This document shows positions 40,866-62,400 of a DNA stretch of 64,000 bases, one piece after another. The notes beneath the pieces are model-generated. The model did not search any database and was not told where the DNA came from. It saw only the letters and a program-made list of their open reading frames with translations. Position 1 is the stretch's first letter; every line of letters starts with the position of its first letter. Both the position numbers and the translations under genes were made by a program. This DNA comes from Xiphophorus maculatus (lineage: Eukaryota > Chordata > Actinopteri > Cyprinodontiformes > Poeciliidae): positions 5,172,572 to 5,236,571 of the forward strand of contig NC_036448.1 in NCBI RefSeq assembly GCF_002775205.1, given 5' to 3'.

Positions 40866-41605
40866 TGCTGAAAACCTACGAGCGGAAGAATTAACCTTTT
40901 TTTTTTTTCTCCCCCTCCGTTGCTGAATTCCTGCTTTGTGTCTCAGCGTTTGGTCTGCCTCTACAGGCTGTTTTGACCGGACAATCTTTTTTTTTTTTTT
41001 ATGTGTCTAGCCGCCGTCACCGGCAGTTTTGTTTACTTCCTCAACAACCAGCGGCGTAGGAAGCGGGGGGGACGGGGGGGACATGTCCCCCCCAATATTG
41101 AAGCCAGGTGGATATGTCCCCCCCAAAAAATTGTACCGCAAAATATTGGATTTTGACATTTTTTTAACTAGCGTGCTTTTATTTTGAAGGCGCAGCATCG
41201 CCTTACGTCACGGTACTCCCCCTCCCCTCTCTGAACTGCTGAGTGAGCACTCAGAAGGGAGGGAAACAGCGACACAGAAGTCAGAAACTTGCGAATGAGG
41301 TAAAATGGTCTGTCGGGAATGCTGCTATGAATATTGCTTATTTATAACGTCTTGTTGTCAGTTCACTTTCATATATAGGAACTGAATCTTTTTGGTTTAG
41401 TCATCTTAGTCTTGGGATGATCACTCATCCAATATTTAACTGCTAACTTTCTCTAGACGTTTGCTACGCTAGCCAAAATGTCTTTTTTTTATATATATAT
41501 ATCTCATTTCAGTACAATGCCACCACCAACTAAAAGGCTGAAACAGCAGCAGGACTTACTCAGCTTTTTTAAAAAGAAGTAACGTCAGTGTGAGTAACAG
41601 TCACA

Positions 41606-41641
41606 CAACACAAGGGCAACACCTGTGTTGCCCTTGTGTTG
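41606..41641. repeat. Perfect 17-bp-arm inverted repeat inside hAT copy 1
   Basis: Arms CAACACAAGGGCAACAC and GTGTTGCCCTTGTGTTG with a 2-bp spacer, just downstream of the candidate first transposase exon. The mirror copy is at 61800-61835. Confidence 0.9.
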
Positions 41642-59400: not shown

Positions 59401-62400
59401 CAGAGTGTTGAAACTTTCTTGATTTCTTTTAGCCTTAAGTGAAGTCTGAACAACTTTCACAGCAGTCCTCATTCCAGCAATGGTTTGAGTTCTCTTCTGG
59501 AAAGAGATGCTCAGGCATTCAAGCTCATCAATCACAGGTGAGGCAAGGATGAGACCCAAAACTGTTTTACCTTTCCTAAACTGCCCCAGCAGTCCATTAG
59601 CAGTGGATGCTGTGTTTGAGGCACCAGAAGCCATCTCCTGCAAGCTAGCCAGCACTGACCCATACTGTGACAAAACATCTCTGATTGCTTTGCTCCGTAC
59701 TGCCCATCTTGTGGGGCAGAGGGGTTTTATTGCAGTGCACGATGGATTCTCTGTATGTGCTGTTGCTGCATGGATTGCCTTAAACTTCCCTGACTGAGAG
59801 AAAAGAACTCCAAGCTGGTTCACCCAATCCAATGCGTCTCTGATCAGAACTGAGGCTAAGCAAGCTTTCTGTGCAATTAAATTAGTGCAGTGTGCTCCAC
59901 AATGAACAAAAAGTGCTAGTGGCTGCTCTTGCTTTATCAGTGCCTGTGCACCTGCATGCTTCCCAGACATATTGGCTGCTCCATCATAAGTTTGACCTCG
60001 TAAACCATGCATTGGTAAGTTTAATCTGAGCAGCACATCTTTAACAACAGCAGCAAGGCTTTTTCCTGTTGTTTCAGAAACTGAGTACAAGCCAATAAAC
60101 TCTTCATGGGGCTTCATGTCACTGTCAATGTATCGCAGACAAATGCTTTCTTGTTCTTTCCCAGAAATGTCCTGTGTTCCATCCATAATAATTGCAAACT
60201 CAAAAATTGGTAGGTTTCTGATTGTATCTGCTATTTCACTGACAATACTATTGCTCATAGAACACAAGATTTCATTCTGTATCTGTGGACTTAGGTATTC
60301 TTTCTGAGACCTCAGCAACCACTTAGCCAAAAGGGCATCATCTTCTGCCAGATTTTTTAACAGTTGATACAAATTGCTGTCATCATCGTCATGCCCTCTC
60401 AAAGCTTGTCCCTGCCGTACCAAATATTTTATGGAGCTCACAATTTTCTCCAGACAGTGCCTATTGTCACCTTGCTGAGTTGCCAAAGCACTGGATAATT
60501 GGGCATTTATAGGATGACTTTCTTGTGCAGTCACAGAAACAGCATGACGATGTGTGTGACTATTTTCATGTGCTTTAAATTTTTCGCATGCTTTTTTCCA
60601 ATTTTTAAATCCAGAAGTGATAAAGGCGGGTTCGGATTTTGCACCAAATGGTGTGAGTTTGTCCTGGTAAATTGCCATGCAATAAAAACACAAAATGCCA
60701 TTTTTCACTGCATCATAATGTAGCCAGGGAAATTCCTTGTACCACTTTCCTTGGAAATGTAAAGTTCTGTTGGCTAGAGCTTGAGGGTCTATGAATTTTG
60801 GATGTGGCTGATTTGGCTCTGTTCTCTGTCCACTGACTTCAGAGTCTCTCAGCTGTGTGTCCCTAGTCTGAACTCCCTAGAAGTAAAAGTTACAATGTCA
60901 CTCAATGCCCCTGAACTACACTTACTACAAGCAAAAGATTAAAATTTTCAACTTTTTTTGTGGACTCTCATGAAGTATCTACTCGTATGAGTTACTCTAT
61001 CTTACCTGTTGCTCCACTCCTGTCTCTCCCTCACTCTGACTTCCTGCCTCTAGCCCGGTTGCACTATCCTCTCCTTTTCCTGTCTCCTTTGTGCTGTCCC
61101 TGCATTGTTGCTCCTAAACATATGAGATGGTTTCAGAAATGAGGTACAGCTCTTGAGCCTAACATGGCCAATTTTAAATCAAACAAAACATTTTATTTGT
61201 CACATTACAGACTTTACGCGCAGAGTTAATCGCAGAGGCAAATAAAATAAATCCATTAAAATCCTTTCAGAGTATTATCTTATGGACTCTGAACTAAAGT
61301 CTTTCTGACAGGGAGCTGACAGTGTGTTGAAGAATTATGGACAGGGCGCTTTGAAGCATCTGGTTCAAAAACGCATTCTAAACCTTTGGTAGAAATCCAT
61401 CTATCCTTCCATTTTCTGTACACCCTTGTCCCTTAGTGGGGTCGGGAGGTTCTGGTGTGGGGTACACCCTAGACAGGTCGCCAGTCTGTCCAGACCTTTG
61501 GTAGAAATGGCGCCTTTAATTCCAGTTTGCAGTACAGAACAGAGAAAACTACAGAGTTGTCAATGTTGTGTTAATCTATTTATAGTCTAAAAAGAGGAGC
61601 CAGCAGTTTATTTGAGGAAATAAAGGTGCAGAAGTTAATTTGTTGGTTAGCCGCTGCTAAGAATTAAAATTAACTCTCCCTGTGGTTTTAACTAACGATC
61701 AGGAGCGCGGCAGGTATAATATCTGTCCATTTCGGCGAAGCAAAACCACACAAAAAATAAAAAATCCTCGTAAAACGCACGCCCAGACCGGGCTAATTTC
61801 AACACAAGGGCAACACAGGTGTTGCCCTTGTGTTGTGTGACTGTTACTCACACTGACGTTACTTCTTTTTAAAAAAGCTGAGTAAGTCCTGCTGCTGTTT
61901 CAGCCTTTTAGTTGGTGGTGGCATTGTACTGAAATGAGATATATATATATAAAAAAAAGACATTTTGGCTAGCGTAGCAAACGTCTAGAGAAAGTTAGCA
62001 GTTAAATATTGGATGAGTGATCATCCCAAGACTAAGATGACTAAACCAAAAAGATTCAGTTCCTATATATGAAAGTGAACTGACAACAAGACGTTATAAA
62101 TAAGCAATATTCATAGCAGCATTCCCGACAGACCATTTTACCTCATTCGCAAGTTTCTGACTTCTGTGTCGCTGTTTCCCTCCCTTCTGAGTGCTCACTC
62201 AGCAGTTCAGAGAGGGGAGGGGGAGTACCGTGACGTAAGGCGATGCTGCGCCTTCAAAATAAAAGCACGCTAGTTAAAAAAATGTCAAAATCCAATATTT
62301 TGCGGTACAATTTTTTGGGGGGGACATATCCACCTGGCTTCAATATTGGGGGGGACATGTCCCCCCCGTCCCCCCCGCTTCCTACGCCGCTGGATAGTTT

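Follow-up and report, generated by a model that had tools for sequence, protein, structure and literature searches.

Two identical hAT transposons in opposite orientation, probably of recent transposition, beside a myocilin gene and within a dynamin-3-like intron

The window analysed here, a stretch of 64,000 nucleotides from Xiphophorus maculatus, encodes parts of several genes and two copies of a hAT-like element. Exons of an FGGY-type carbohydrate kinase are found on the plus strand at 5406–5687 and 16200–16574; they encode the N- and C-terminal domains and are assumed to belong to one gene. A 90-codon frame on the minus strand (29149–29421), which has no Pfam match at E 0.01, resembles the tail of a LINE reverse transcriptase, and a run of 25 C occupies positions 31922–31946 of the plus strand. 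Diverged 20-bp tandem repeats (TGAGTCCT...) at 33925–34495 overlap a 163-codon minus-strand frame (34066–34557), and a PAP2-type phosphatase frame is located on the plus strand at 34884–35354. Myocilin, a vertebrate gene, lies on the minus strand and is recognized by its olfactomedin domain (E 1.3e-82) and by its match to a solved myocilin (E 1.5e-109); the reading frame places its predicted start codon at 40014. Dynamin exons occur on the plus strand; of the solved structures, dynamin-3 is the one that a 71-residue stretch matches most closely. This gene order, together with the FGGY and PAP2 neighbours, fits a fish host.

Copy A of the element occupies 41049–45519 on the plus strand, upstream of myocilin and at a distance of 1,035 bp from its predicted start codon. 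Copy B lies at 57922–62392 on the minus strand, antisense in an intron of the dynamin-3-like gene, between exons that peptide matches place at about 56907 and 62904. Direct comparison and a repeat search both delimit the two copies, and direct comparison confirms that each is exactly 4,471 bp, as an earlier note on this DNA had claimed. That note had also proposed a base-by-base alignment. Read in the same direction, the copies differ at 3,269 positions; after one is reverse-complemented, they differ at 0 of 4,471. Copy B is thus the exact reverse complement of copy A, an orientation that the note had not mentioned. The repeat search reports the pair as an inverted repeat with a 12.4-kb spacer and 100% complementary arms, whose length is given as 4,472 nt rather than 4,471 because one flanking base also matches. 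Each copy contains nine homopolymer runs of at least 7 bases and 16 of at least 6, and the lack of any difference between the copies means that these lengths are unchanged too, as had been stated. No further match to the element was found elsewhere in the window by blastn (filter on, E 1e-2), nor any match to its main transposase exon by tblastn (E 1).

Comparison of the flanks identified a perfect 8-bp target duplication around each copy. Copy A is bordered by TCAACAAC at 41041–41048 and 45520–45527, and copy B by GATAGTTT at 57914–57921 and 62393–62400, so the claim of perfect duplications that differ from each other holds. We also compared the flanks by blastn with the low-complexity filter off and E up to 1, using 3 kb on either side of copy A against 3 kb to the left of copy B and 1.6 kb to its right, where the window ends. 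This search returned 20 matches of 13–31 bases (best E 2.7e-4), all within the right flank of copy B. These look like simple-sequence matches, and extended similarity between the flanks was not found.

The ends of the element form 14-bp terminal inverted repeats with one mismatch. In copy A, the left repeat CAGCGGCGTAGGAA (41049–41062) is matched at 13 of 14 positions by the right end (45506–45519), which reads CAGGGGCGTAGGAA on the minus strand. Allowing up to two mismatches, this 14-bp repeat occurs nowhere in the window besides the four element ends. Short repeats are also present just inside the ends of copy A: G7ACA at 41074 and TGTC7 at 41084 and 41115 on the left (together 41074–41124), and TGTCCCCCCC at 45483–45492 on the right. 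Counted on either strand, TGTCCCCC occurs four times per copy, each time within 100 bp of an element end, and is absent from the remaining 55,058 bases of the window. Since subterminal repeats in hAT elements are typically transposase binding sites, the TGTCCCCC repeats are fair candidates for such sites here. Subterminal repeats have been described as important in Kat1 (PMC4763223).

The main transposase exon of copy A (42565–44691, plus strand) consists of 708 codons followed by a stop, and an identical exon is found in copy B (58750–60876, minus strand). The earlier note had described a 652-residue transposase common to both copies. Identity residue for residue was borne out, but the 652-residue form begins at a mechanically chosen GTG inside a frame that is open for all 708 codons, starting at 42565 directly after an AG, and that needs a start exon further upstream. 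A Pfam profile search of the main frame identified DUF4371 (PF14291) at E 6.7e-21. The hAT dimerisation region (Dimer_Tnp_hAT, PF05699; E 2e-4) is marginal, at 21.5 bits against a cut-off of 21.4 bits (21.8 bits with the 652-residue form), and a weak zinc finger (zf-C17orf113) scores 22.8 bits, below the Pfam cut-off of 29.5 bits. Candidate catalytic residues, assigned by way of hAT motifs, are two aspartates (D, at 43258 and 43456) and a glutamate (E, at 44500). The spacing of the two candidate D residues is 66 codons, against 68 between D180 and D248 in Hermes (PMC2533014). Sequence searches of solved transposase structures gave no match and no alignment to Hermes, with two chance-level matches per search, and a single-sequence fold prediction was unusable (mean pLDDT 38.4). 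An Rfam search gave 0 matches at the gathering score.

An exon upstream of the main one, with which it is in phase, is predicted at 42342–42435 on the plus strand; its donor at 42436 is strong and agrees with the consensus at 8 of 9 bases. Where this exon starts is ambiguous: at 42328, 42331, 42342 or another of the 18 open acceptors listed. For the first coding exon, we listed 12 candidates with an ATG, a donor of at least 5/9 and a phase that fits a listed acceptor. None of the 12 is clearly best, and the listing led to no unique upstream gene model.

One of these candidates (41517–41578, plus strand; weak donor, 5/9; prediction only) would encode QQDLLSFF, a PCNA-binding-like motif that fits the PIP-box consensus printed in PMC5371812. 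The motif is encoded by only two of the 12 candidates (starts 41478 and 41517, same donor), and four of the 12 have better donors than the PIP-box exon (6 or 7 of 9). Joining this exon to the next uses the poor acceptor at 42342 (pyrimidine fraction 0.38), whereas the better-looking acceptors at 42328 (0.56) and 42331 (0.69) do not fit its phase. In a shuffle test, which presupposes the exon and uses a motif chosen after being seen, 611 of 20,000 shuffles produced such a motif at any position, and 29 of 20,000 produced it among the 25 N-terminal residues. A PIP-box first exon of the transposase is a possibility that we regard as doubtful. PIP boxes have been reported in pogo, Tigger and Lemi1, and a putative one in maize Ac, which is a hAT (PMC5371812); a limited literature search turned up none described for a vertebrate hAT or for a DUF4371 hAT.

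The non-coding part of the element contains two further features. A 98-bp fragment, which resembles a fish LINE or SINE tail, lies at 41947–42044 (plus strand) in copy A. The 14-bp sequence ATTTCTACCAAAGG flanks it as a perfect repeat on both sides, at 41933 and 42045, so that the whole spans 41933–42058. The same fragment is found in copy B at 61397–61494, and a 26-base piece of it has an 88% match (E 0.004) at 57428–57452, outside the element. If the fragment is a nested insertion, its presence in both copies indicates that the element could still move after taking it up. In addition, a predicted intron of copy A contains an inverted repeat at 41606–41641 (CAACACAAGGGCAACAC), whose 17-bp arms match perfectly and enclose a 2-bp loop.

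Together, these features make it highly probable in our judgement that the pair consists of two full-length, apparently autonomous hAT elements of the DUF4371 type, probably Tip/Tip100, that were placed by very recent cut-and-paste transposition. The transposase, which belongs to an RNase-H-like family, would recognize the CAGSGGCGTAGGAA ends along with the TGTCCCCC repeats and would excise the element by a predicted cut-and-paste chemistry, and the element would insert elsewhere via an 8-bp staggered cut. Identical copies with separate insertion scars point to a family that likely moved recently and may still be mobile.

The earlier note had proposed two independent insertions and recent transposition. 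The zero differences, the different duplications and the dissimilar flanks support both recent movement and two separate insertion events. "Independent" is too strong a word, because an identical pair separated by 12.4 kb could also be a copy and its local daughter. The short distance and the identity suggest that one copy gave rise to the other, or a single parent to both, by local hopping. Given also the inverted arrangement, we consider this likelier than the separate arrival of two unrelated elements. A PIP box in the transposase (QQDLLSFF) could couple transposition to DNA replication and thereby favour nearby, not-yet-replicated DNA; we think this unlikely, though if true it would account for an identical pair at a distance of 12 kb.

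The insertions could instead be older and have been held identical by gene conversion between the inverted copies, in which case they would look younger than they are. Inverted copies at this distance have a geometry that permits conversion, yet they are identical right up to the terminal base on either side, and conversion would not have restored the two 8-bp duplications, both of which are perfect. The latter argument is weak, since 8-bp repeats date an insertion poorly; on balance we give this explanation a small chance. An artefact of assembly or haplotypes, with one copy real and the other misplaced or filled in by the assembler, would account for exact identity over 4.5 kb, which is also expected from an assembler's consensus of a repeat. 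The copies, however, lie in opposite orientation between different flanks, and each is bordered by a separate perfect 8-bp duplication; a wholly false copy would not bring a target duplication with it, which leaves this explanation very improbable. A segmental inverted duplication of a region with one element would yield an inverted pair on one chromosome, but the similarity stops at the element ends, apart from one further base that matches by chance, and the target duplications differ, so that its probability is negligible. Different perfect duplications and flanks that share only short matches make a single duplication of either kind, segmental or by assembly, unlikely, and both were rejected on these grounds.

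Under the preferred reading of recent transposition, the age of the insertions can be bounded. The absence of differences over 4,471 bases limits divergence to at most 6.7e-4 (95% upper bound). At fish mutation rates of 2e-9 to 6e-9 per generation, this corresponds to an age of at most about 168,000 to 56,000 generations, provided that gene conversion did not act. Such an age is recent but does not imply activity today.

Two identical full-length copies with an open main exon make the family a good candidate for an active native element. Such an element might serve as a gene-transfer tool and in studies of local hopping, and the insertions near the myocilin start and in the dynamin-3-like intron could affect those genes. 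Natural hATs of proven activity in vertebrates are few, among them Tol2 and Tgf2 (PMC4890040), and the plant element Tip100 already works for gene transfer in medaka (PMC12511174).

The sequence features support placement of the element in the hAT superfamily. Terminal inverted repeats of 10–25 bp and a length of 2.5–5 kb are given for hATs in PMC3942097; the element has a 14-bp repeat matching at 13 positions and a length of 4,471 bp, along with two perfect 8-bp duplications and a dimerisation domain that only just passes its cut-off. Within the superfamily, it probably belongs to the Tip/Tip100 branch, because DUF4371 (E 6.7e-21) and the hAT domain occur together as in BuT2. BuT2, a Drosophila element of the Tip group, has 8-bp duplications, 12-bp terminal inverted repeats and a five-exon gene encoding DUF4371 and a hAT C-terminal domain (PMC3942097). 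The element resembles BuT2 in its 8-bp duplications, short terminal repeats and both domains, but BuT2 is 2,775 bp long and encodes 643 residues, whereas the element is 4,471 bp long and its main exon alone has 708 codons.

DUF4371 proteins are described as having a TTF zinc finger at the N terminus and an RNase-H-like domain, in most cases with a hAT dimerisation region as well (PMC3985635). The same domain order is suggested in this transposase, although its sub-cut-off zinc-finger match is to another model (zf-C17orf113). A single-protein query suited to close relatives confirmed no relative of the transposase among viral contigs (viral_contigs; 0 of 18 pattern stretches) or prokaryotic contigs (genome_contigs; 0 of 23).

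Tip100 itself is a Tip/Tip100-branch element of morning glory, and Tol2 and Tgf2 are not known to belong to the DUF4371/Tip branch. The element is like these two active fish hATs in its size class (Tgf2 is 4,720 bp), its 8-bp duplications and its fish host (PMC4890040); their activity is experimentally proven, whereas here it is inferred. Tip100 families are present in teleosts, and autonomous-looking hATs were ordinary in the four fish surveyed in PMC4746887. The element may already be catalogued, and the pair is a good example of an already known kind of transposon rather than a new kind.
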